A stretch of DNA of 64,000 nucleotides from an uncultured Flavobacteriales bacterium (lineage in GTDB: Bacteria > Bacteroidota > Bacteroidia > Flavobacteriales > CAJXXR01). Location: assembly GCA_913063375.1 (NCBI GenBank), contig CAJXXR010000004.1:1-64000 (forward strand). The letters run 5' to 3'. Numbering within the stretch: position 1 is the first letter of the stretch; each line of letters begins with the position of its first letter. This document shows, one piece after another, positions 23,754 through 48,328 of the stretch. Under the pieces are notes generated by a model. It was not told the DNA's origin. It did no database searches and saw only the letters and a program-made list of their open reading frames with translations. Made by a program: the position numbers and the translations under genes.

Positions 23754-24785
23754 TTATGTTCTTGAAACCTTCTGATATTTGTCAATTAGATATATTAAAA
23801 AGAATCCAAATAGGATCAATACCAGATTCATGATGAGGTTTGCATTTATTTCAGGAAAATATCGTTGATAGTTGTTAACAATAAATCTTCCTGATTTTGA
23901 GATAACTGGATTTCCATAAGAATCCAGTAAATAGTGTTCCAATTTCCATGGCCAAACGGTCCCTAAGGAACCAAGTAAGAACCCCGCAATGAGTGAAAGT
24001 GTATTGTGCTCATACTTCTGAATGAAATGAGAAAGAATCTGAGCCAATAGTACTATTCCCACTATAGAGCCGGATACAAAAAGCAGCATTATTAATAATA
24101 GGTGTTGCCTTCCTTCCTCACTGAAATGTGAAAAGTCCCATTGTATTATATCTCCAATACTTGCATATAATTCATTTACGGAATATACCATACAAAGGGC
24201 ATAATTGCCTAAGAGTATTAGTAGAAAGGAACCAGATAATCCTGGTAGGGACATACCACAAACGGAAATGAAGCCACAGAAAAATACAAATAGATAGTTT
24301 GAATTTTCCGGCATTGGATCTAGAAACGATAGTAAGATTCCTATTATTGCTCCTGCTACACCTAATCCAATGGTTTTTTTCGTTGCGGGTAATTTCCGCC
24401 AAATTGAATGAGCAGTTCCGAGAATGAGGCCAAAAAAGAAGCTCCATACCCAATTTCCATAATGTTCGAATAAATAATCTAGTAGTATGGAGATGCTAAA
24501 ATAACTAATGATAGTTCCTGAAAAGATAGCAACCAGGAAAGCCCCATTCACTCTTTGCATAAATGCTTTGAAGCCCCTTTTTCTTAATACTAAAAGACTC
24601 TTAAGATTTAATTTCTTTAGGGAGTTGATAAGTTCTTCATAAAAATCAAGAATTATTGCAATAGTACCTCCTGAGACCCCTGGAACCTTATTGGCAGTCC
24701 CCATTAGAAGTCCTTTAATTACTAAGAAGAAGTAATCAATACCCTTTCGAGAGCTATATTTTTTCCTCTTTTGTTTTGGATCCAT
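23754..24785 (-). CDS. DUF368 membrane protein (second of pair), putative polyprenyl-phosphate translocase
   Basis: A 343-residue polytopic inner-membrane protein with the DUF368 signature 'KGLLMGTANKVPGVSGGTIAIILDFYEELI' at its N-terminus and the mirrored 'CGMSLPGLSGSFLLILLGNYALC' in the middle. The family was reported (as PopT) to recycle undecaprenyl phosphate across the membrane, alongside DedA-family UptA. The ATG at 24785 was preferred over TTG 24794. It overlaps the 3' end of the first DUF368 gene by 32 bases, a coupled pair that probably arose by duplication. Here the first motif has 'ANKVPGVSGGT', against 'ADIVPGVSGGT' in its paralog. Confidence 0.85.
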   Translation of the reverse strand: MDPKQKRKKYSSRKGIDYFFLVIKGLLMGTANKVPGVSGGTIAIILDFYEELINSLKKLNLKSLLVLRKRGFKAFMQRVNGAFLVAIFSGTIISYFSISILLDYLFEHYGNWVWSFFFGLILGTAHSIWRKLPATKKTIGLGVAGAIIGILLSFLDPMPENSNYLFVFFCGFISVCGMSLPGLSGSFLLILLGNYALCMVYSVNELYASIGDIIQWDFSHFSEEGRQHLLLIMLLFVSGSIVGIVLLAQILSHFIQKYEHNTLSLIAGFLLGSLGTVWPWKLEHYLLDSYGNPVISKSGRFIVNNYQRYFPEINANLIMNLVLILFGFFLIYLIDKYQKVSRT

Positions 24786-25683
24786 ATTCCACAAAAAATA
24801 TTAGAGCTAATCCTAGTGTACAGCACAATATAGCAAGAAATACTTGAGGATCATGTTCAAATTGCTGTGGTAATACACTTTTTTGTAAAACTGGGACCTC
24901 TACGCCATGTCTATCTAATGCGGTTGTTAAAGTGTTGCGCCATGGCCATACTTTGTTTAAGGACCCTATCATAAATCCTGTAAGCAATGCCATCGTGGTT
25001 TTCTTTTGGTTTTTGAATAACCAATTCAAAAATCTTGAAAAACTCAATAAACCAATCACAACTCCTAGAGCAACGCTTAAAATATCCAAGATTTTAAAAT
25101 CACTCAAGGATTGCATGATGTATTTATATTTCCCCAAAAGAAGCAGAATAAAACTACCAGATATTCCTGGTAATATCATAGCACATGAAGCTATTGCTCC
25201 AGATAAGATTAAAAATGGGTAACTGTTAGGACTTTGAATACTATCTGAAACGGTTATAAAATAGGCGATAGATACTCCAATCACGAGTGCGCCGTATTCT
25301 TTCATTTTCCATCCTTTTTCAGACTTTCCAATGAGCCAAGCAGACCCTAAAATCAAGCCAAAGAAAAATGACCAGGTCATCACAGGATGATGCTCAAGAA
25401 GATTTTTCATTAGTTTAGCTAGGGAAATAAAGCTGACAATGATTCCTAGGAAAAGACTTATAAGAAAATTTCCGTTTAGACTGGCCCAAAATGATTTTAT
25501 TCCCTCTTTTCTTAAGGTAGCTAGTAAACCTAAATTGATGTTATTAATAGATGCTATCAATTCCTCATAGATACCAGTAATAAAGGCTATGGTTCCCCCA
25601 GAAACACCTGGAACGATGTCTGCTGCACCCATGGCAACACCCTTAATGCTTATTAGCATATACTCTTTAATAGTACGTGGCAT
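24754..25683 (-). CDS. DUF368 membrane protein (first of pair), putative polyprenyl-phosphate translocase
   Basis: A 309-residue polytopic membrane protein with the paired motifs 'KGVAMGAADIVPGVSGGTIAFITGIYEELI' and 'CAMILPGISGSFILLLLGKYKYI'. This is the more canonical of the two paralogs. DUF368 proteins have been linked to return of undecaprenyl phosphate to the cytoplasmic face for peptidoglycan, O-antigen and teichoic acid synthesis. Its coding end overlaps the second paralog by 32 bases, and a rhodanese-domain gene ends 42 bases upstream. Whether both paralogs act on the same lipid, or as a heteromer, cannot be told from sequence. Confidence 0.87.
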   Translation of the reverse strand: MPRTIKEYMLISIKGVAMGAADIVPGVSGGTIAFITGIYEELIASINNINLGLLATLRKEGIKSFWASLNGNFLISLFLGIIVSFISLAKLMKNLLEHHPVMTWSFFFGLILGSAWLIGKSEKGWKMKEYGALVIGVSIAYFITVSDSIQSPNSYPFLILSGAIASCAMILPGISGSFILLLLGKYKYIMQSLSDFKILDILSVALGVVIGLLSFSRFLNWLFKNQKKTTMALLTGFMIGSLNKVWPWRNTLTTALDRHGVEVPVLQKSVLPQQFEHDPQVFLAILCCTLGLALIFFVEYGSKTKEEKI

Positions 25684-35094: not shown

Positions 35095-35718
35095 ATGAAA
35101 TTTATATTTTTTTACTATTGTTTTATCTGGTTAATAGTTCCAATAAACACTTCTTATGCCCAAGATTCTATTACACTTTTAGGAAAAAAGGATGCTTATA
35201 TAAATAGTATTTTTCCAGAAAGGAGTTTTAAGATTCATGGGGGAACTTGTTTAGTTGCTGCTGCCTGGACTAACCAAAATAGACCATGTATTGTTAGGGC
35301 ACTATTTGATTTTGATATGTCTTTGATCCCTAGTGAGGGAGTGGTGGAAAAAGCTATTTTATCTTTATACGGTGCGACAGATCATAGTGATGGTGCGCAT
35401 TCAACTAGTGGAGGTTCAAATGAGTCAGAACTTCTAAGAATTACAAGTTGTTGGGATGAAGAATCGGTGACTTGGAACTCACAGCCTGGCTATAGTGACG
35501 AAAATAAAGCCACTTTAATAGAAAGTGTATTACCAGAAGAGGATTATTTAAATATTGATGTCACTGAATTGGTGAAGGATATGATAGATTCGCCTTCTGA
35601 AAGTTATGGCTTTATGTTGAAATTGATTACAGAAGAGTACTATAGAAAAATGGTTTTTGCAACCAGTAACAATTCCGATGTGAGCATTCATCCAAAATTG
35701 ATTGTTACTTTTGAATAG
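35095..35718 (+). CDS. Secreted DNRLRE/CBM96-like beta-sandwich protein 1
   Basis: A 207-residue protein with signal peptide (cleavage near SYAQ/DS) and a single domain of DNRLRE type. The features are 'AAWTNQNRPCIVRALFDFDMSLIP', 'AILSLYG', the locus-specific 'GAHSTSGGSNES', 'ITSCWDEESVTWNSQP', 'EDYLNIDVTELVKDM', 'YGFMLKLITEEYYRKMVFATS' and 'HPKLIVTF'. DNRLRE modules are normally parts of large secreted proteins, and some have been classed as carbohydrate-binding module 96. Here the domain stands alone with no T9SS tail, so the protein is probably periplasmic or released. Followed 30 bases later by paralog 2. Ligand unknown. Confidence 0.82.
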   Translation: MKFIFFYYCFIWLIVPINTSYAQDSITLLGKKDAYINSIFPERSFKIHGGTCLVAAAWTNQNRPCIVRALFDFDMSLIPSEGVVEKAILSLYGATDHSDGAHSTSGGSNESELLRITSCWDEESVTWNSQPGYSDENKATLIESVLPEEDYLNIDVTELVKDMIDSPSESYGFMLKLITEEYYRKMVFATSNNSDVSIHPKLIVTFE

Positions 35719-35748
35719 ATGTTAAAACAAAACTAGGAAAGCAGATCT

Positions 35749-36390
35749 ATGAATAGAGTACTAATGATTTACAGCTGTTTTATAGGAATGTTTTTAGCTT
35801 CCTGTACCCATTCAAATGACATCCAGACATTGATTTTGCAACCTGATGGGAAAAAGGGAAAAGATAACGTAATAGTGAGCTTATGGCTTGAGAAGAATAA
35901 ATATGTAAGTCAAGAATTCGCGTCGTGTGCATGGACTGCAATGGGAAAATCTGTCACCCTTCGTTCTTTACTTGAATTTGATCTTTCACAAATTCCGAAG
36001 TCAACTAAAATTATTGATGCAAGATTATCATTGTTCTCCTATGGATCTATGCACAATGGGAATCACACTACAAGCGGTGGATCTAATGAGTCCGTTATTC
36101 AGAGAATAATCCAACCATGGGATGAAGCGGAGGTTCATTGGGGAAATCAACCGCTAACTACTGAACAGAATCAGGTATTCCTATTGGAAAGTGTAGCACC
36201 AATAGAAAACTATCTTAATATTGATGTTACAACAATGATCCAGGATATGATAAATAATCCAGAAGAAGGACATGGTTTTATGTTGAAGCTAGTAAATGAA
36301 GTACATTATAGAAGAATGTTGTTTGCTTCTAGTGATAACTATAACTCAAATCTTCATCCTAAGTTGGAGCTAAAATATGTTCTAAAATAA
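35749..36390 (+). CDS. DNRLRE/CBM96-like lipoprotein (paralog 2)
   Basis: A 213-residue paralog of the preceding gene that differs by having a lipoprotein signal peptide: the lipobox 'FLASC' puts the lipidated Cys at about residue 19. The mature domain keeps 'CAWTAMGKSVTLRSLLEFDLSQIP', 'HTTSGGSNES', 'PWDEAEVHWGNQP', 'ENYLNIDVTTMIQDM', 'HGFMLKLVNEVHYRRMLFASSD' and 'HPKLELKY'. It would be anchored in a membrane, perhaps the outer membrane, while its paralogs are soluble. It shares a transcript with paralog 1 (30-base gap) and faces the convergent LytTR regulator gene 30 bases away. Confidence 0.82.
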   Translation: MNRVLMIYSCFIGMFLASCTHSNDIQTLILQPDGKKGKDNVIVSLWLEKNKYVSQEFASCAWTAMGKSVTLRSLLEFDLSQIPKSTKIIDARLSLFSYGSMHNGNHTTSGGSNESVIQRIIQPWDEAEVHWGNQPLTTEQNQVFLLESVAPIENYLNIDVTTMIQDMINNPEEGHGFMLKLVNEVHYRRMLFASSDNYNSNLHPKLELKYVLK

Positions 36391-36420
36391 TGTCATTGAC
36401 TTAGGTAAAAGGGTTATAGT

Positions 36421-37173
36421 TTATTGACTAAAATAGTTCAAAAAATCACTTTTTCTAGTTGAGGAAACTGGAATATTAATATCATTAATTAGAATGACTT
36501 CTCCACCTTTCCCTTTTTTATAATTTTTCACATAGTTGATATTTATAAGATGGGATTTGTGAACACGTACAAAGTCATATTCTTTAAGGGTTTCTTCATA
36601 AAATTTTAGTGTTCTACAAATGGTTCTCTTGGTTCCATCTTTCAAAAAGAAATCAGTTAAGTTATCATTGGCTTTACAATGCAGAATGTCTTTAAGTTGT
36701 ACCACCTCAAACCCTTCAAGGGTTGGTAAGACCATTTTCTTCAGCTGTTTATTTTCAATGTTTATATTTTCTAATAAGATTTTGGAAGTTTGAATTTTTG
36801 TTTTGTTTTGAATTTGAGCTTCAACATTTTCAACCGCTTCTATTAATTGATCAATATTTAAAGGTTTCAATAAGTATCGACTTGCACTCATATTTATAGC
36901 TTGAAGTGCATAACTACTATAGGCAGTGACAAATATGGATTCGAAGTTTATGTTTTCAAATTTTTCCAAAAGATCGAAAGCATTACCATAAGGCATCTCG
37001 ACATCAAGAAAAACTAAATCAGGTTTGTTAGAGTTTATAATTTTATAGGCATCGTTTATATTGCTAGCCTCTCCAATAACATCTACTTTTGGGCAATATT
37101 TTTCAAGGAAATTTCGAAGCGTTATTCTACTAGCTTCTTCATCTTCAACAATTAGTGCTCTTAATTTTGACAT
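36421..37173 (-). CDS. LytTR-family response regulator
   Basis: A 250-residue two-component regulator. The receiver domain starts 'RALIVEDEEASRITLRNFL', with acidic pocket Glu10/Asp11, phosphoacceptor Asp57 in 'LVFLDVEMPYGNAFDLL', the Thr in 'SIFVTAYSSYA', and Lys in 'RYLLKPLN'. After a linker comes a LytTR DNA-binding domain ('ILHCKANDNLTDFFLKDG', 'FVRVHKSHLININYVKNY', 'NIPVSSTRKSDFLNYF'). It is the only regulator in the DNRLRE locus and the natural partner of the two LytS/YehU-type kinases on the same strand. It is separated from them by paralog 3, which runs the other way. No promoter was identified for it. Confidence 0.93.
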   Translation of the reverse strand: MSKLRALIVEDEEASRITLRNFLEKYCPKVDVIGEASNINDAYKIINSNKPDLVFLDVEMPYGNAFDLLEKFENINFESIFVTAYSSYALQAINMSASRYLLKPLNIDQLIEAVENVEAQIQNKTKIQTSKILLENINIENKQLKKMVLPTLEGFEVVQLKDILHCKANDNLTDFFLKDGTKRTICRTLKFYEETLKEYDFVRVHKSHLININYVKNYKKGKGGEVILINDINIPVSSTRKSDFLNYFSQ

Positions 37174-37477
37174 AGTATTTGAGGGGGAATTGAGGTTTTT
37201 AATTGAATTTTTAATGGATTTAAGATAGTTTTTTTTAGATAAACTCCAAAGTGCATAAGTCTACTTTTTTGACTTTATAGTATCTTTTGATTATTCAATT
37301 AATATTTTGAATTAACATTTAATACAGATGGACTTATATTTGCTAGTAATGTTAAAAATCGATTTCTTTTTAATTTAGAAAAGGAGGAGTATTATCGCTC
37401 CATGTTTTTAGCCTCTTCAGATTATCAGTATATTAAAATGCATCCAAAAGTAATAATAACCTATTATTTTAAAAAGA
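37174..37477. other. Intergenic region upstream of DNRLRE paralog 3, holding a gene remnant
   Basis: Between the LytTR gene (minus) and paralog 3 (plus). The left ~130 bases show nothing coding. A TATATTTG -7-like box is at 37335-37342 with no well-spaced TTG. The right part is the C-terminal fragment of a DNRLRE gene, described separately. Confidence 0.6.
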
Positions 37478-37485
37478 GTGAATAA
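37351..37485 (+). pseudogene. Remnant of a fifth DNRLRE paralog (C-terminus only)
   Basis: The plus-strand frame ending at the TAA at 37483-37485 reads 'NRFLFNLEKEEYYRSM', 'FLASSDYQYIKMHPKVII' and 'TYYFKKSE'. It aligns without gaps to the C-terminal ends of the four intact paralogs (for example 'GFMLRLVEEMYYRKMIFASTD...HPTLQIIYTKKK'). The frame is open only back to 37303, has no upstream start codon giving a signal peptide, and lacks the 'STSGGSNES' and 'WDE..V.W' core. Its stop codon overlaps the GTG start of paralog 3 by a few bases. It is therefore the stranded 3' end of a deleted copy, too short to be listed as a gene. Confidence 0.8.
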
Positions 37486-38110
37486 GGCAGGTCTCATAAT
37501 TTTTATTTTCAGTTTCCATTGGTCTGTTCTATTTGGTCAAGACACCTTACTATTAAGGTCAGATAACTCTGAAATCATTGATGTGATGATATCTAGTGCT
37601 ACGCACTATAGAGGATATCCAAGCTCACCAGAAATTTCAGGTATAGCTTGGACTGGAAATTTAAAAAAAATAAAAGGGAGGGGGTTTATAGATTTTGATT
37701 TATCAACACTTCCTGAGGGCATTGAATTAAAATCAGCAAGCCTGTCATTGTATTCGATTGTTTCTATGCACAATGGAAATCATTCTACGAGTGGAGGTTC
37801 AAATGAATCTGTGTTGCAACGTGTGATAAGTGATTGGGATGTGAAAACTTTAAATTGGTCAAACCAACCCTATACTACCTCAGTGAATGAGGTAATACTT
37901 ATAGAAAGTATATCAGAGAATGAAGATTATTTGGATATTGATATTACGGCCTTGGTACAAGATATTTTGGAGGATAGAGAATGCAGCTTTGGTTTTATGC
38001 TTCGCCTAGTTGAAGAGATGTATTATAGGAAAATGATATTTGCCTCAACGGATTATTTGGATAGTTCAAAACACCCAACTTTACAAATTATTTATACTAA
38101 AAAGAAATAG
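37478..38110 (+). CDS. Secreted DNRLRE/CBM96-like protein (paralog 3), GTG start
   Basis: A 210-residue paralog with a Sec signal peptide (NKAGLIIFIFSFHWSVLFGQ/DT). No ATG is available before the signal peptide, so translation should begin at GTG 37478, which overlaps the stop of the paralog-5 remnant. The domain has 'IAWTGNLKKIKGRGFIDFDLSTLP', 'GNHSTSGGSNES', 'SDWDVKTLNWSNQP', 'EDYLDIDITALVQDI', 'FGFMLRLVEEMYYRKMIFASTD'. Its 'SMHNGNH' stretch is shared with paralog 2. It runs into the convergent kinase gene with only 18 bases between the stops. It lies between the LytTR gene and the kinases, breaking what would otherwise be a minus-strand kinase-regulator operon. Confidence 0.82.
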   Translation: MNKAGLIIFIFSFHWSVLFGQDTLLLRSDNSEIIDVMISSATHYRGYPSSPEISGIAWTGNLKKIKGRGFIDFDLSTLPEGIELKSASLSLYSIVSMHNGNHSTSGGSNESVLQRVISDWDVKTLNWSNQPYTTSVNEVILIESISENEDYLDIDITALVQDILEDRECSFGFMLRLVEEMYYRKMIFASTDYLDSSKHPTLQIIYTKKK

Positions 38111-38128
38111 TTTCCAATATTTTGAAGC

Positions 38129-40147
38129 CTATTTTTGCGGAATGGTTAATATAATCATGGTACCACAATCTGCCTTGTCAGGGTCTAAATCGCTTACTTC
38201 TTCAGTGATTTTTATTTTATGGAGATCCTCAAATATTTGTATTCTATGTTTAATATTCTTTAAGGCTATACTTTTATTTTTCTTTTGGTTATTGGTTTTG
38301 TATTCCTTACTTTTTTCCCTTCCAATACCGTCATCAATTACAGTAACCAAGAGGTTCCCTCCATCATTTTTAATGGAGACTTTTAATAGCCCCATTTCCT
38401 TTTTATATCTCAATCCATGCCATATAGCATTTTCTATATAGGGTTGAATAAGCATTGGTGGTAACTTGAATTCATCTTCATCCAAATCGGCATCAATATC
38501 AAGCGTAAAAGTGAATTTGTCCTTGAATCTGTGGTGTTCTAATTCCAAATAGATATTTATTATTTCTAGCTCCTTACTTAATGGAATGAAATCATATTCT
38601 GAATTCTCCATTACAGACCGCATCAAACTTGAAAACTCACTTAAGAAGCTATTGGCTGCCCTTTCATCGTTAAGGGAAATAAAGCTATTTACAGAATTCA
38701 AGGCATTAAATATAAAGTGAGGGTTCATCTGCGATCGTAAAGACCTTAAGGCTAATTGCTGATTAGCAACTTTACGTTGTTTCGAAATATGTCTTAAATA
38801 AAATATCCCTATGGTAACTAAAACTAGCCCCAAGGCCAATATTAAGATTATCTGATTGGAGTTTTCGTTATCCGTTTTCAGGCCTATAATTTCATTTTTG
38901 TCTATATATTGATTTCGTTGTAATTCGTTCGCATTTAAGGTGTTTCCTAAACTTGATGCTCCAGATTCTGAATTTTCATAATTTAATTTTAGCTGATGCG
39001 ATTTGATGGTATCACGGAGTTGCTCGTATGAAACAAAATATTGTAAGGCTTTCTGCTGATTATTTGACTTATTTAAATGATGGGCTAAATCTTTAATTAT
39101 TTCGATTTCAGCGTTTATAAATAGGGCATAGCTAATTTTGGAAAAATATTTGTCAACTGCTCGTACTGCTTTGTCAAATTCTTCCTTCTTATAGTATCTA
39201 TTGGCTGATTTAAGATATTCGAGGGAATTTAAATTTTTATCATTTAGAATTTCATTCCTAATCCTTAACTGCTTAGTCGTAAAAATATCTGCAGTTATAG
39301 AAGAGGTATCAGGACTACCATCGGCATTAATTACAAAAAAGGTAGAGTCGGTTACCGTTTGATCGATTTCATTATTTGCCAAAGCATGGTATTCTTGCGC
39401 TTTTTTGGTGTCACCAAGCTGAAAATAACAATCAGCAATCCTTCTATAGCAATTTCTAATATTTAAGTTTTGGTTATTATGTTTTTCTTTAATCAATAGT
39501 CTGTTATAAACGTCTATAGCCAGTAAGAATTGATTTGAATTAAAGTAATTGTCTGCAGCCTTGTAATCAAAATTATCTTGAATTAAAGAATTAGATATTT
39601 TCAAATTTAGGATGGCATATATTTCATTAGCGCTATCATATTCACCAAGTTGTGCATATATTTCAGCCCAGTCACTATAGAATACTATAGGGACTATGTG
39701 AAACTCTAATTCAATGCAATAATTTAATTCTATACGTCGATATTTTCTTTTTGGAGGTTGATCTTGTTTTTGATAGTCCTCCAATTTTAAAATAAGGGGA
39801 ATATTTATTTTTTTTAGTTGCCCTTTGGCTAATTTCAAATATTGTAAAGCAATAGTTGGTTTCTGAAGATTTTTATAGGAACGCCCCATGAGCATATAAC
39901 AATAGGCTGTTTCCCTATATAGGTTTTGCTTTATGGATAGCGGGATCAGGTCATTTATATTGTGAATGGCCTCTTCTGGATTTTTGGAAATTTGAGGTTC
40001 AATTTCTGTAATCAGATTAAATAGATACAACCCCGTTGTGTCTACCTCCATAATTTCTTTTTTGGAAGTACTTTGATTCTTAGCCAAAGTTACTCCGTAA
40101 AAAAGAGATACTAGGAATAGTATGTGCTTAAATTTAATTCTGATCAT
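38129..40147 (-). CDS. TPR-sensor histidine kinase, LytS/YehU type (kinase 1)
   Basis: A 672-residue sensor kinase. N-terminal signal/anchor (MIRIKFKHILFLVSLFYGVTLAK), about 400 residues of TPR-like helices probably in the periplasm ('RNCYRRIADCYFQLGDTKKAQEYH'), one transmembrane helix near residues 430-450 ('IILILALGLVLVTIGIFYL'), then a His_kinase (PF06580-type) domain with phosphoacceptor His477 in 'SQMNPHFIFNALNSV'. An HATPase domain follows ('LPPMLIQPYIENAIWHGLRYK', 'VIDDGIGREKS'). Paralogous to kinase 2 with the same His position. The likely partner is the LytTR regulator at 36421. A consensus promoter lies so close to the ATG that the transcript should be almost leaderless. Confidence 0.92.
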   Translation of the reverse strand: MIRIKFKHILFLVSLFYGVTLAKNQSTSKKEIMEVDTTGLYLFNLITEIEPQISKNPEEAIHNINDLIPLSIKQNLYRETAYCYMLMGRSYKNLQKPTIALQYLKLAKGQLKKINIPLILKLEDYQKQDQPPKRKYRRIELNYCIELEFHIVPIVFYSDWAEIYAQLGEYDSANEIYAILNLKISNSLIQDNFDYKAADNYFNSNQFLLAIDVYNRLLIKEKHNNQNLNIRNCYRRIADCYFQLGDTKKAQEYHALANNEIDQTVTDSTFFVINADGSPDTSSITADIFTTKQLRIRNEILNDKNLNSLEYLKSANRYYKKEEFDKAVRAVDKYFSKISYALFINAEIEIIKDLAHHLNKSNNQQKALQYFVSYEQLRDTIKSHQLKLNYENSESGASSLGNTLNANELQRNQYIDKNEIIGLKTDNENSNQIILILALGLVLVTIGIFYLRHISKQRKVANQQLALRSLRSQMNPHFIFNALNSVNSFISLNDERAANSFLSEFSSLMRSVMENSEYDFIPLSKELEIINIYLELEHHRFKDKFTFTLDIDADLDEDEFKLPPMLIQPYIENAIWHGLRYKKEMGLLKVSIKNDGGNLLVTVIDDGIGREKSKEYKTNNQKKNKSIALKNIKHRIQIFEDLHKIKITEEVSDLDPDKADCGTMIILTIPQK

Positions 40148-40152
40148 AGGCC

Positions 40153-40183
40153 CAAATGTACTTAATATGATCCATTCTTACAA
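40153..40183 (-). promoter_or_regulatory. Promoter of kinase 1, near-leaderless
   Basis: On the minus strand, TTG (40183-40181), 20-base spacer, TACATTTG (40160-40153). The ATG at 40147 begins five bases after the -7 box, so the transcript would begin at or next to the start codon. Same elements and spacing as the kinase 2 promoter. Confidence 0.68.
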
Positions 40184-40413
40184 GAGGTGAAGATTCTAAA
40201 TCCCTTATTAATAAAGGCTTTAGCGTGATTTTTGTCCAGCTAGCGTAATTGAGGTAGTTAACTAAGTGAAAAGGTGCTTTCACTAATTCTGCCTTGAATG
40301 TGAATAAAACAAAAGTTAAGTTTACAGTAATAATAATGTAATACAAAGCACCGGAGTAATGGGGATTATAACGGTAAATTAATGTTTAAGTAATTAGATA
40401 TTTTAAATGTGTG

Positions 40414-40444
40414 GAAAAAAAGCGATCATTGATCGCTTTTTTTT
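40414..40444 (-). terminator. Terminator downstream of kinase 2
   Basis: Palindrome AAAGCGATCA...TGATCGCTTT with A and T runs on both sides; T tract on the minus strand, 76 bases after the kinase 2 stop. Confidence 0.82.
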
Positions 40445-40519
40445 GTTTTATCAAACTTCAATACCTTCCTCTTGTATTAATAATTTAACACTTGCCCAAA
40501 GGAAATAAGCGTGGTTCCT

Positions 40520-42541
40520 TTAGTTTTTTTGAGGTATTATGATGATTATTTTTGTTCCAGTATCTTCTTTTTCAGTATATAAGTCTGTTATTTTTACATC
40601 AATTTTAATCTTATGTAAATTTTGAAAAATTTCTATCCTTTGATCTATATTTTTAAGCGCGATACTTTTATTCTTCTTTTGGTTTTTGGTCTTAAATAAT
40701 TTACTCTTAACTCTACCAATACCATCATCCATAATCTCTATTATAATCTTATTGCTCTGCTCTTTTATATTTATCTGCAAGAAACCCTTTTCATTTTTAT
40801 AGCGCAATCCGTGCCAAATAGCATTTTCAAGGTATGGCTGAATCAACATTGGAGGTAATTGAATATGGTCTTCATCAATGTTTTCATCAATGTTAAGATG
40901 AAAGGTGAATTTATCCTTAAATCGATGATGTTCAAGTTTAAGGTAAATATTTAAAATTTCGATTTCCTTTGTTAAGGAAATAAAGTCATATTCCGAATTT
41001 TCCATTACTGTACGCATCAAGCTAGAAAATTCGCTTAAAAATTTGTTTGCATCTCTTTCATTATTTAGAGAGATAAAACTATTCACCGAATTTAAGGCAT
41101 TAAATATGAAATGTGGATTCATTTGTGATCGTAAGGATCTGAGCGCTAATTGTTGATTGGAGACCTTTCTTTGTTTGGATATTCGTCTTAAAAATAGAAC
41201 CCCTACTGTTACAATCAGTAAACCAAAAAGGAGTAAATTGTTCATGTTATTAGTGAATTCTTGCTCTTTTTTTAAAAAATCATACTTATTATCTTTTAGT
41301 TCTTTAGCTCTTTGAATTTTGTCTGCGTTAAGGATGTTTTGTAATCCTTTAGCTCCAATTTCGGAAGATTTATTACTTGCCAGAACTTGATGATTTTTAA
41401 TGGTATCTCTTAATGCTTCATAGTGCATTAAATACTGGAGGGCTTTTTCTGGCCTATTAGTTTTACTTATTTGATTTGCTATATCTCTTATGATTTGAAT
41501 TTCTAATTCTTCAAATAAGGCGTAGCAAATTTTTCCAAAATACTTATCCAACGCCCTTTCTGCCTTTTGAAATTCCTTGTTTTTATAATATTTCTTAGCA
41601 AGGTTTAAATACGCTAAAGAATTTAGATTTTTCCTTTTTAATATTTTGTGTCTTTGATGACGTTGTTCAGGGCTAACTATATTAATATTTAACTCATTGC
41701 TTTTAGATAATTCATCCTTTTGAATTATATCAAATATAGAATCGCTTACGGATTGATCTATCCCAACTTTGGCAAGCTGAAGAAATGCTTCAACATTTTC
41801 CATGTCACCTAATTCATAATAGCAATCTGCGATTCTTCTACAACAATTTTTAATATTTAAGTTTTGATTACCATGCTTTTCATGAATCAATAGTTTTTTA
41901 TAATCTTCAATTGCAGCTGTATATTTCCCGGATTCAAATTGGTTCTGAGCAATGAAGTATTCTAAATTACGATGAATTGAGTTATTGGTAACCCTTTCTC
42001 GCAATATATTGAGCATTTCATTAGAGTTGCTATACTGCTCCAATTGTTTATATATTTCTGCAATGTCAATATAAAAGCCTATTGGAATAATGTTTTGTTT
42101 TAATTCAGCGCAAGTGAAACGTCCTTTTTTCTTATATTTTCTTTTTGGAGTCTGATTATTTTCATTGAAATTTTTTAAACTAAAAAAGACTTGGATTCCT
42201 TTTTTGTCAAATTGGAACTTTGCCAATTTCATATATTGAAGTGCAAGGGTCGGTTGCTGCAGGATTTTATAACATCGCCCTAATAATATATAACAAAAAC
42301 CTGTCTCCCGATTCGCATTTTGTTTAATTGCTAAGGGTAGTATTTCATTTAATTGGTCAATGCAATGTTCTGGTTCATCTTCAAGGCTTGATTCTAAATT
42401 CAAAATTTGGTAGAATAAGCTATCACTTTTAGACTCTGTGTTGATGGACTCGCTCGTCTTTCTTGAAATTCCGACTCCAATTGTAGACTGAAGAGATAAG
42501 ATTATACCCAGAAAAAGAAGAATGTATTTTAGTTTTTTCAT
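40520..42541 (-). CDS. TPR-sensor histidine kinase, LytS/YehU type (kinase 2)
   Basis: A 673-residue paralog of kinase 1. Signal/anchor (MKKLKYILLFLGIILSLQS), TPR-rich periplasmic region ('IKNCCRRIADCYYELGDMENVEAFL'), one transmembrane helix ('LLLFGLLIVTVGVLFL'), phosphoacceptor His477 ('SQMNPHFIFNALNSV') and HATPase motifs ('LPPMLIQPYLENAIWHGLRY', 'IMDDGIGRVKS'). The catalytic halves of the two kinases are nearly alike while the TPR sensor halves have diverged, suggesting different inputs to one output. ATG 42541 was chosen; the TTG at 42550 falls in the -7 box. It has its own terminator and promoter, so it is not simply co-transcribed with kinase 1. Divergent from DNRLRE paralog 4. Confidence 0.92.
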   Translation of the reverse strand: MKKLKYILLFLGIILSLQSTIGVGISRKTSESINTESKSDSLFYQILNLESSLEDEPEHCIDQLNEILPLAIKQNANRETGFCYILLGRCYKILQQPTLALQYMKLAKFQFDKKGIQVFFSLKNFNENNQTPKRKYKKKGRFTCAELKQNIIPIGFYIDIAEIYKQLEQYSNSNEMLNILRERVTNNSIHRNLEYFIAQNQFESGKYTAAIEDYKKLLIHEKHGNQNLNIKNCCRRIADCYYELGDMENVEAFLQLAKVGIDQSVSDSIFDIIQKDELSKSNELNINIVSPEQRHQRHKILKRKNLNSLAYLNLAKKYYKNKEFQKAERALDKYFGKICYALFEELEIQIIRDIANQISKTNRPEKALQYLMHYEALRDTIKNHQVLASNKSSEIGAKGLQNILNADKIQRAKELKDNKYDFLKKEQEFTNNMNNLLLFGLLIVTVGVLFLRRISKQRKVSNQQLALRSLRSQMNPHFIFNALNSVNSFISLNNERDANKFLSEFSSLMRTVMENSEYDFISLTKEIEILNIYLKLEHHRFKDKFTFHLNIDENIDEDHIQLPPMLIQPYLENAIWHGLRYKNEKGFLQINIKEQSNKIIIEIMDDGIGRVKSKLFKTKNQKKNKSIALKNIDQRIEIFQNLHKIKIDVKITDLYTEKEDTGTKIIIIIPQKN

Positions 42542-42547
42542 TAGTAC

Positions 42548-42578
42548 CAAATGTAGCTAAAAGCGTAGAGTAAAACAA
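42548..42578 (-). promoter_or_regulatory. Promoter of kinase 2, near-leaderless
   Basis: On the minus strand, TTG (42578-42576), 20-base spacer, TACATTTG (42555-42548), with the ATG six bases after the -7 box. It matches the kinase 1 promoter in both boxes and in spacer length. Confidence 0.68.
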
Positions 42579-42752
42579 GTTAATATTCTTTGTGTAGCCT
42601 TATTTTTAAGGTTATAAGGTATTGTAATTATTGACTTATTATAAAGTAATTAGACCTCCTTATATTTGAGGTTTAGAGGAGTTTATTTAAATAAATTTTT
42701 CATGGATGTATTATAATTTTATCTTTATAGATAAATTAAAGAGTAGAAAATT

Positions 42753-43370
42753 TTGCATCCCTTTAAATTAACATTTTCCTTATTTTTTGTGAGCTGTATT
42801 CTTATTGCTCAAGATAGTTTGATTTTAATTCCAAATGGAAGAACTGGTAAAGATGCCTATTTGTCTAGTTTTCATCCAGATATAAATTTTGGTGATTTTA
42901 ATGATATATCTTCTCATGCATGGACAAATGGAGGAGAAGATGCAATTGTTAGGTCCTTAATAGAATTTGATCTTTCTGAATTGAAAAATGGAACGATCAT
43001 TAAGTCAGCTATGCTTACATTTTATGCAAGTAAAAATTCCCCTGGTGGCTCTCATTCAACAAGTGGTGGATCAAATGAAGTATTGATTCAAAGAGTGATA
43101 ACTCCTTGGGATGAAAATACCGTTTGTTGGAATAACCAACCTCAAACAACCTCTCTTAATGAGGTAACTCTTATTGAAAGTGTATATTATAATGAAGATT
43201 ATGAAAATATTGATGTCCGCCAATTAATTCAAGATAGTATGGATGATCTGGATAATAGTTTTGGATTTTTATTACGCCTTAAAACCGAAGAAATATACAG
43301 AAAACTTGTATTCGGATCTAGTGATGTGAAAAATATGAAACTACGTCCAAAGTTAGTTATAGTTTATTAG
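42753..43370 (+). CDS. Secreted DNRLRE/CBM96-like protein (paralog 4), TTG start
   Basis: A 205-residue paralog with a Sec signal peptide (HPFKLTFSLFFVSCILIAQ/DS). The only start that preserves the signal peptide is TTG 42753. The domain has 'HAWTNGGEDAIVRSLIEFDLSEL', 'GSHSTSGGSNE', 'TPWDENTVCWNNQP', 'EDYENIDVRQLIQDS', 'FGFLLRLKTEEIYRKLVFGSSD', 'RPKLVIVY'. It is transcribed divergently from kinase 2 across a 211-base gap holding TATATTTG at 42661-42668, a possible -7 box giving a leader of about 80 bases. The arrangement points to joint control with the kinase gene. Confidence 0.82.
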   Translation: MHPFKLTFSLFFVSCILIAQDSLILIPNGRTGKDAYLSSFHPDINFGDFNDISSHAWTNGGEDAIVRSLIEFDLSELKNGTIIKSAMLTFYASKNSPGGSHSTSGGSNEVLIQRVITPWDENTVCWNNQPQTTSLNEVTLIESVYYNEDYENIDVRQLIQDSMDDLDNSFGFLLRLKTEEIYRKLVFGSSDVKNMKLRPKLVIVY

Positions 43371-45340: not shown

Positions 45341-46672
45341 ATGAAAAGAAAATTAGTAACACTGTTAACTATCTTGACAATTTGTTTGATTTCCGAATTA
45401 CAAGCCCAGTTTGATATTACTGAAGTTGGATTATTGCCGGAAAAAGTGTCTAATAATGCTGTTTGCGAGGGGTTTATAAACGATACTGCTTTTGTTTTTT
45501 CTTTCGGAGGGATAGATTCTACTAAAAGTTATACTGGAATTCATCGAAGATCTTTTCGGTATAATGTTCTTACAGGACTATCAGAATCTATACTAGATCT
45601 TCCCGATACTCTTGGGAAAATTGCATCTGGGGCCTCCAGAATTGGAGACATTATTTATATAGCTGGAGGGTATCATGTCTACGAAGATGGACATGAAAAA
45701 TCATCTAATAAAATACATCGTTATGATATAATAAATAATATATTTCTATCTGATGGAGCAAATATACCTATTGCAATCGATGATCATGTACAGGCAGTTT
45801 GGCAGGATAGTTTAATTTATTTGATTACAGGTTGGAGCAATTTCGGTAATGTTCGAAGTGTTCAGATTTATAATCCAACTACAGATAGCTGGCAAGTTGG
45901 GACTCTTATACCTAATACCAATAGTTATAGGTCATTTGGGGCTTCCGGAACTATAGTGAATGATACCATTTATTATTTTGGAGGGGCAACTTCTAGCTTT
46001 GGGTTTGATATTCAAAATAAATTACGAAAAGGTATTATAAACCCAGCTGCCCCGACTCAGATTACATGGTCCATTTCCACTCCAGATCCAGCTATTGATG
46101 GCTACCGAATGGCTAGTTGTTCAGTAGATGATAAAGCTTATTGGATAGGAGGTAGTAATGCAACATATAACTACGATGGTATTGCCTATGATGGATCAGG
46201 TGGGGTTCCTACATCTAATCGAGTATTATGGACTGAAATAGATAGTATTCAGTGGTTTGAGGATTTTCTTTTGGAGATACCTATGGATTTGCGTGGAATT
46301 GGAAATGTAAATGATACTATTAAGTATTTAGCAGGTGGAATGATAGGTGATCAATCCCTTACAGATAAGGTTTATAAAATTAGATTTAATCATTCTTTTA
46401 TAGGTCTTGAAGAGACAGGTGAATTAAAGAATGAATTTGAAATCTATCCGAATCCATCCAGTGATATTATAACAGTTAAGTTTCCCGATAATTTGGAGAC
46501 TAAAAAATTAAGAATACGTGGTGTTAATGGTGTATTGATAAATGAGTATACCATAGCAGCTCAGATTAATCAATATCAAATTGGCATTTCCCATCTTCTT
46601 CCAGGTGTTTATATTGTTGAATGCGTAGGAAGACAGAGTGTATTACATGCAAGTAAGTTACTTATACATTAA
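45341..46672 (+). CDS. Kelch-repeat protein with T9SS type A sorting domain
   Basis: A 443-residue secreted protein. Signal peptide (MKRKLVTLLTILTICLISELQAQ), then kelch-type beta-propeller blades with the diagnostic patterns 'IYIAGGYHVYEDGHEKSSNKIHRYD', 'LIYLITGWSNFGNVRSVQIYNPTTDSW', 'DTIYYFGGATSS' and 'AYWIGGSNATYNYDG'. The C-terminal ~80 residues ('NEFEIYPNPSSDIITVKFPDNL', 'HLLPGVYIVEC') are a T9SS sorting domain. It is expected on the cell surface or released. Kelch propellers bind proteins or glycans, but the ligand is not known. Followed by a perfect terminator. Confidence 0.88.
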   Translation: MKRKLVTLLTILTICLISELQAQFDITEVGLLPEKVSNNAVCEGFINDTAFVFSFGGIDSTKSYTGIHRRSFRYNVLTGLSESILDLPDTLGKIASGASRIGDIIYIAGGYHVYEDGHEKSSNKIHRYDIINNIFLSDGANIPIAIDDHVQAVWQDSLIYLITGWSNFGNVRSVQIYNPTTDSWQVGTLIPNTNSYRSFGASGTIVNDTIYYFGGATSSFGFDIQNKLRKGIINPAAPTQITWSISTPDPAIDGYRMASCSVDDKAYWIGGSNATYNYDGIAYDGSGGVPTSNRVLWTEIDSIQWFEDFLLEIPMDLRGIGNVNDTIKYLAGGMIGDQSLTDKVYKIRFNHSFIGLEETGELKNEFEIYPNPSSDIITVKFPDNLETKKLRIRGVNGVLINEYTIAAQINQYQIGISHLLPGVYIVECVGRQSVLHASKLLIH

Positions 46673-46723
46673 ACTGTGGCAATGACGTGGCCTATAGTCT
46701 AAGCTAATTTCCTAAGAATGATG

Positions 46724-46763
46724 AAAAGCCCTAATTTCTAATCTGAAATTAGGGCTTTTATTT
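46724..46763 (+). terminator. Terminator of the kelch protein gene
   Basis: Perfect 15-bp stem AAAAGCCCTAATTTC/GAAATTAGGGCTTTT, six-base loop, T-rich trailer. Confidence 0.9.
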
Positions 46764-46852
46764 TGTATTGAATTGCAGTAGTATATTGAAAAAATGCTAT
46801 GACCTATATTTTTAGTATATTCAGTTTTAATAGAATCTTAGATTACAATGGT

Positions 46853-48328
46853 ATGAGAAATTTACTTTTTATTGTCCTTTCAATACTTTCTAGTACTTCA
46901 ATAGTGGCTCAATCCGATTATGCCTTGTTTCCGAAGGATAGCATTATCTATTCAAGTGAGCAATTTGAATTCCCTATAAAAACCTTGGAGTATGATACCA
47001 TTGGAGGGGTGGTATATCAAGTTCTTCACCCTACCTATCATGCAGAATTTAATAGTTTAAATGCCTATTTAAGTTTGATTGATTCTAATCCGACTACAGA
47101 TGATTACTCTAATTGGAAAATTGAGCATTGGATGGGGGCTAATTTTAATTATGATAGCAATGGTGTATATCAATTTGAAAATAGAACTGGTGAAGAATTC
47201 ACCATTTATACCCAAGAGGAGGTTGGTTATGATTGGATTTTTGTTGAATTTTCAAATGGCGATTATATTGAAGCTACAGTGGATTCAATTAATGAAATTA
47301 CGGATGCTTCTATCACAGATTCTGTGAAGTATATAAGTTTTGAATATAAAGATTCTTTGGGGATATCAGTTCCGGATACTATGAATACAATTTCTTTTAT
47401 TGTTTCAAAGCATAATGGTGTTATTCAGTCTCTTGCTTTTTATGAATATCCATATTTAAAGGAGGAATTCGAGAGATCCATTATTATTGAACCTCTTGTG
47501 GATATAGAAGAAACCAATCGATATAGAATTTGGAATGCCGAAATTGGTGATGAATTTCACAGTTATATTGAAATTTCTGCCAATGGTGAATATTGGGAGG
47601 AATGGTATAAAAATAGAACGGTTTTAATCACTGGAAAGAATTGGGAACTTGTGGGGAATAAATTCACCTATACACTGAGTATAAAGGAGAGTTTGAATTA
47701 TATTTTCGCTGGACCGCCATCTTTTTTTTCATTCAATGATACGGTAACAATTGATTTGAACAATTTTTTATGGATGGATGAATTGTTGTTTGGAGTAGAT
47801 CATCCAGTTTCACAATATGATACAGAAGAAGCTGCAAAATCAATGTTTAATGATAGTCTGTTTACGATTGGTCAGCAGTTGAGAGAATTTTATTCTCCCT
47901 GGTATCCCTATGAAGATCATATTGTAGGTGAACATTATGTAGAAGGTTGTTATGGATTATATGTATTTGGGGAGGCTCCTTTGTCTTTTGGTAAGAGACT
48001 AATAAAACTGGTATACATTAAAAAAGGTGATTATACATGGGGCTCACCTTATAATCTGAATGTTGAGGAATTGTCAAATTCATCTATAAATATGTATCCA
48101 AACCCAGGGATTAATACAATTGTAATAGATGGTCTGAATCAAAATTTCGATGATCTAGTTGTAAATATATATGATATAGGAGGAGGGCTTCTAAATTCTA
48201 AAAGGATTGATTTAGAATCTCCTAAAATGACGGTGGATGTGAGTTTTCTTCCGGCGGGTATTTACTTTGTGGAAATTAAAAAGGATGAACAGTTTTCAGA
48301 TATTCAAAAATTAATAATAAAGAGATAA
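46853..48328 (+). CDS. T9SS-exported protein of unknown function
   Basis: Not recognised beyond its export signals. A 491-residue protein with a signal peptide (MRNLLFIVLSILSSTSIVAQ) and a C-terminal T9SS sorting domain ('SINMYPNPGINTIVIDGLN', 'FLPAGIYFVEIKKDEQF'). The middle ~390 residues are rich in aromatic and acidic residues and beta-strand-like ('YEYKDSLGISVPDTMNTISFIVSKHNGVIQSLAFYEYP'), a phrase that recurs in secreted Bacteroidota proteins of unknown role. The ATG at 46853 gives a normal signal peptide; the longer frame from 46799 does not. It lies downstream of the kelch gene but after its terminator. Confidence 0.8.
   Translation: MRNLLFIVLSILSSTSIVAQSDYALFPKDSIIYSSEQFEFPIKTLEYDTIGGVVYQVLHPTYHAEFNSLNAYLSLIDSNPTTDDYSNWKIEHWMGANFNYDSNGVYQFENRTGEEFTIYTQEEVGYDWIFVEFSNGDYIEATVDSINEITDASITDSVKYISFEYKDSLGISVPDTMNTISFIVSKHNGVIQSLAFYEYPYLKEEFERSIIIEPLVDIEETNRYRIWNAEIGDEFHSYIEISANGEYWEEWYKNRTVLITGKNWELVGNKFTYTLSIKESLNYIFAGPPSFFSFNDTVTIDLNNFLWMDELLFGVDHPVSQYDTEEAAKSMFNDSLFTIGQQLREFYSPWYPYEDHIVGEHYVEGCYGLYVFGEAPLSFGKRLIKLVYIKKGDYTWGSPYNLNVEELSNSSINMYPNPGINTIVIDGLNQNFDDLVVNIYDIGGGLLNSKRIDLESPKMTVDVSFLPAGIYFVEIKKDEQFSDIQKLIIKR

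Follow-up and report, generated by a model that had tools for sequence, protein, structure and literature searches.

One envelope role is already known for DNRLRE-like lipoproteins. A 2025 Nature paper (PMC12611786) reports that the BAM complex of Flavobacterium johnsoniae contains BamH, an exported DNRLRE-like lipoprotein, and gives 8WAB, a chondroitin-sulfate-binding CBM, as its closest structure. A second relevant structure, 7VBO, is the alginate-binding founder of CBM96, with a lysine-rich stretch and a basic groove (Lys10, Lys22, Lys25, Lys27, Lys31, Arg36 and Tyr159; PMC9971899). In Bacteroidota, the proteins nearest in build to those studied here are single-domain DNRLRE proteins, which have one domain copy and a signal peptide and mostly end in a type IX sorting tail. 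On the signalling side, the closest system is a gene set that we characterize below, composed of a VWA-domain lipoprotein, a TPR-LytS kinase and a LytTR regulator. Literature term searches found no published description of this module, and no open-access paper combined VWA, LytTR, tetratricopeptide and two-component. The pairing of DNRLRE with histidine kinase returned only an unrelated Enterococcus study from the open-access literature.

A family of small DNRLRE proteins among two-component genes

A 64,000-nucleotide stretch of DNA (referred to hereafter as the window) from an uncultured Flavobacteriales bacterium (CAJXXR01; GCA_913063375.1, contig CAJXXR010000004.1) was analysed. At 35095-43370, between the dapD and peroxiredoxin genes, four intact genes and one truncated gene of a single family lie on the plus strand around three two-component genes on the minus strand. 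The intact genes are D1 (35095-35718, 207 aa), D2 (35749-36390, 213 aa), D3 (37478-38110, 210 aa, GTG start) and D4 (42753-43370, 205 aa, TTG start). The minus-strand genes encode a response regulator with Response_reg and LytTR domains (36421-37173) and two paralogous LytS-type kinases, HK1 (38129-40147) and HK2 (40520-42550), in which a TPR sensor and a transmembrane segment precede the His_kinase and HATPase domains. The HK2 reading frame opens with TTG, and an ATG nine bases further in is a likely candidate start. These open reading frames are as the initial annotation described them. Its decayed fifth copy is also real, but consists of the C-terminal end only: the remnant (37309-37485, plus strand, readable from about 37309) matched positions 174-208 of the A1 model at 37360-37464 (E 1.9e-6), and its stop codon and the start of D3 fall within an 8-base overlap.

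The D2 start is 30 bp downstream of D1, and the two genes are likely to share one transcript. HK1 and HK2 are probably transcribed separately, with a terminator-like hairpin of 14 pairs (40414-40444) between them. D4 is divergent from HK2 across an intergenic region at 42551-42752; the remnant and D3, taken together as the remnant/D3 unit, likewise diverge from the regulator gene. Elsewhere in the window, two adjoining minus-strand genes at 23757-25683 are VCA0040-like (undecaprenyl phosphate translocase-like).

All four intact D proteins matched NF033679 (DNRLRE_dom; 81.8-103.9 bits, E 5.7e-23 to 8.9e-30, cut-off 34 bits) and PF24517 (CBM96; 43.5-61.2 bits, cut-off 26), which bears out the family assignment made earlier from motifs. 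D2-D4 are 39-42% identical to D1, and a full-length alignment contained 49 invariant columns. The motif TSGGSNE is invariant. The motif forms quoted in the initial annotation are approximate, D1 having WNSQP, D2 TTSGGSNE and ENY, and D3 WDVKTLNW. The four proteins formed one group with long branches in 98% of bootstrap trees; their nearest kin, with weak support, were the homologs at L117 (family f27) and L156 (family f20). The genome to which the window belongs is 83% complete, and no member of the family beyond these five sequences was found in it.

The structure comparison proposed in the initial annotation was carried out on D4 and gave the expected fold. The AlphaFold model (pLDDT 96.6) is a two-sheet beta-sandwich as in 8WAB and 7VBO (TM 0.68-0.77); in Foldseek searches 8WAB was the best solved match (E 2.8e-8), and 7VBO was also matched (E 9.6e-7). 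The D proteins thus have both the beta-sandwich and the profiles in common with these CBMs, but stand alone, with no lyase attached. In a weak sequence alignment inspected by eye, the basic groove of 7VBO was not apparent in D4: the stretch of D4 opposite the alginate-binding stretch of CBM96, ISSHAWTNGG, contains no lysine. The mature D proteins are acidic (pI 4.5-5.8). Matches of the D proteins to TGF-beta propeptides were rejected as a clue to function, as the beta-sandwich is a fold in common; a likeness of CBM96 to the TGF-beta propeptide fold had already been noted (PMC9971899).

By eye, an apparent Sec signal peptide was recognized at the start of D1 (..TSYAQD), D3 and D4, and a lipobox, FLASC, in D2, which is a probable lipoprotein. 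A Pfam search of D1-D4 found no type IX sorting tail (PF18962 or CHU_C), so that the proteins probably remain in the periplasm or are held at the outer membrane. The genome does make use of type IX tails: two adjoining exported proteins encoded at 45341-48325 in the window carry them, one of these proteins also having Kelch repeats.

Homologs were present in 17/398 genomes of the order and 58/395 of the class, and comprised 101 reading frames. About one-third of these encode single-domain proteins of 360 aa or less, some 20 encode proteins of around 500 aa with two domains, and the remainder are larger. Small single-domain DNRLRE proteins are therefore common in Bacteroidota, and the earlier statement that the domain normally occurs in large proteins is half true. 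Among 33 small single-domain homologs, 24 had a PF18962 tail and two a CHU_C tail. It is the missing type IX tail, not small size, that is unusual about the D proteins, and the only other tail-less single-domain homologs were those at L073, L156 and L174.

A conserved Bacteroidota module that includes the kinase-regulator pair

Loci related to the window's kinases were collected from the same order (L223-L242, found through the kinase part of HK1, and L205 and L206) and from the rest of the class (L215-L222). The LytTR regulator gene lies directly downstream of the kinase gene in nearly all of the same-order loci found through the kinase part. In 25 of the 30 loci a gene for a VWA-domain lipoprotein of about 400 aa is divergent from the TPR-LytS gene, which is followed by the LytTR gene; this arrangement was found in 16/20 and 2/2 of the two same-order sets and in 7/8 of the class loci. 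Most class loci add two further genes, one for a secreted protein of about 210 aa with no Pfam match and conserved Cys and His (sA), the other for a YkuD_2 L,D-transpeptidase of similar length (sB). The window's kinases and regulator are homologous to those of the module by sequence and tree, and the pair belongs to this module, a relationship that is new here. A widespread Bacteroidota module, in some families including an L,D-transpeptidase, is thereby pointed out.

The window differs from the module in several respects. The sA and L,D-transpeptidase genes are absent from it, and no match to the VWA gene was found in the window or in about 80 kb more of the same genome. The kinase gene is doubled, and D4 occupies the VWA slot, the HK2/D4 intergenic region corresponding to the kinase/VWA-lipoprotein divergent region of the relatives. 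The regulator gene is on the same strand as HK1, but is split from it by D3 and the remnant on the opposite strand, whereas kinase and regulator genes are contiguous in the relatives. Near the module of one genome, G651, a tandem run of seven genes encodes exported proteins that resemble one another and are about 190-215 aa long (L215:15427-19999).

The H, N and G boxes of the kinases (His_kinase, PF06580) and the receiver Asp of the regulator (FLDVEMP) are intact. HK1 and HK2 are 54% identical overall, with 45% identity between their sensor parts and 73% between their kinase parts, and formed a pair found only in the window (support 100/100), showing that the duplication is private to this lineage. 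They grouped with the kinases at L215 and L217 (98/93). The L215 pair is homologous over its full length (kinase 42%, regulator 67% identity), and the L217 regulator is likewise 67% identical to that of the window. The window's regulator and kinases grouped with families f20, f46 and f79, followed by f27, and not with order-mates, which points to horizontal transfer or to a deep paralog. The window's TPR sensor had no match in 388 same-order genomes; eight genomes from elsewhere in the class had kinases that matched it.

DNRLRE genes and two-component genes in other genomes

The gene set DNRLRE, TPR-LytS and LytTR, for which the initial annotation had proposed a search of other Bacteroidota genomes, was found nowhere else in the sampled genomes, and none outside the window had a DNRLRE gene adjacent to a gene of this kinase family. 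No DNRLRE gene occurred at any of the 30 module loci. Co-occurrence at the level of genomes was considered and rejected, since only the window's own genome combined a DNRLRE match with a kinase match in the order sample, and in G677, where both are present, they are on different contigs.

A looser linkage was detected within the order. We scanned the neighbourhoods of 91 homologous DNRLRE loci, 18 from the same order and 73 from elsewhere in the class. A LytS kinase gene of a LytS/LytTR pair was within 3 kb of the DNRLRE gene at 5/18 same-order loci, as compared with 0.25 expected; the five represent three independent arrangements (P 0.002, with the 3 kb limit set after the data had been seen). 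At L066:9693-12512, genes for a single-domain DNRLRE protein with a type IX tail, a short LytS kinase and a LytTR regulator follow one another on one strand with gaps of up to about 16 bases; at L079 and L081 the DNRLRE gene is beside a Reg_prop kinase gene; at L082 and L083 a LytS kinase gene is 2 kb away. The frequency in the remainder of the class was that expected (1/73 as against 0.8). The linked kinases are of other families (Reg_prop or short LytS), none of the window's TPR type, and the linkage is thus a recurrence in the loose sense and not a conserved gene set. The initial annotation would have put the linkage down to chance if the neighbourhood were unique and the homologs scattered away from two-component genes. 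The neighbourhood is unique among the sampled genomes and the homologs are scattered; those within the order have two-component neighbours at the frequency given above.

A proposed envelope-response system with a changed output, and its rivals

The reading that we favour, tentatively, is that the locus represents an altered version of the module, an envelope-response two-component system whose exported output now consists of DNRLRE proteins. The kinase gene would have been duplicated in this lineage, and a locally expanded D family would have filled the divergent exported-protein slots. The TPR kinases would detect changes in the cell envelope and phosphorylate the LytTR regulator, which would turn on the D genes nearby. 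The D proteins would then bind glycans in the periplasm or at the outer membrane. In the relatives the genes of the kinase and of an exported partner diverge, and D4 and the remnant/D3 unit are divergent here; from this gene context we infer that the D genes are probably switched on by the kinase-regulator pair. In the simplest reading, the regulator controls divergent exported genes in the relatives and in the window alike, with D proteins in the window either substituting for the earlier exported output or adding to it. If so, the module is an envelope-response system and the window a natural output swap. DNRLRE/CBM96, an orphan exported domain family, is tied by this locus to a signalling module. 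The functional link proposed initially thus gains indirect support from the conserved exported partner of the kinase family, from the slots that the D genes occupy and from the enrichment within the order. Counting against it, that enrichment is confined to the order, the module loci have no DNRLRE gene, and a search of the four intergenic regions for a common regulatory motif gave nothing above shuffled sequence.

A serious rival, and a realistic possibility, is that the neighbourhood is due to chance. The D genes would have entered or expanded jointly with a transferred kinase-regulator pair, or beside one, but would act independently of it, their products binding, for example, the cell's own surface polysaccharide. 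The absence of the gene set from other sampled genomes is as this predicts, as is that of the whole cluster from the dapD neighbourhoods of six other genomes. Three glycosyltransferase genes are directly upstream of dapD in the window, and two of the three other tail-less homologs are in polysaccharide loci, one flanked by a Wzx-like flippase gene and a Wzy-like ligase gene (L073:8424-12800), the other between two GT2 genes (L174:8547-11400). Against chance are the interleaved order of the D genes and the two-component genes, the position of the D genes in divergent slots, the intactness of four of the five copies, and the recurrence of LytS/LytTR pairs near DNRLRE genes within the order.

An unlikely reading, close to the suggestion of the initial annotation, is that the D proteins act upstream of the kinases, as periplasmic ligands or co-sensors, with a glycan-loaded or glycan-free D protein docking on the TPR domain of HK1 or HK2 and setting kinase activity. 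TPR domains bind proteins and peptides. The tail-less D proteins and the sensors, which apparently lie outside the inner membrane in the periplasm, are probably in the same compartment, so such docking is possible. The lower identity of the sensor parts is what different partners would produce, but divergence of this kind is ordinary among paralogs. A weak model of the HK2 sensor matched TPR peptide sensors such as NprR; its pLDDT of 59.9 supports the TPR class alone, and a finer structural assignment was dropped. Homologs of the sensor in other genomes have no adjoining D gene. In a more specific form, which we think distinctly improbable, D1-D4 would be diversified periplasmic glycan-binding adaptors that dock on the two TPR sensors and report which glycan of the envelope or environment is present. 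The envelope-response system would thereby have been repurposed into a protein-mediated sugar sensor with multiple ligands.

It is very improbable that the D proteins are parts of outer-membrane machinery like BamH: 8WAB is the closest match of both BamH and D4, and D2 has a lipobox, but BamH is part of the BAM complex, whereas the D proteins come from five local copies beside signalling genes, three of them without a lipobox and none with BAM genes beside it.

No DNRLRE relative was confirmed in viral contigs, and plasmids yielded two weak matches, from Priestia. At L147:35-1475 and L180:9351-10249, DNRLRE genes are split into adjacent reading frames and are probably frame-shifted or decaying copies.
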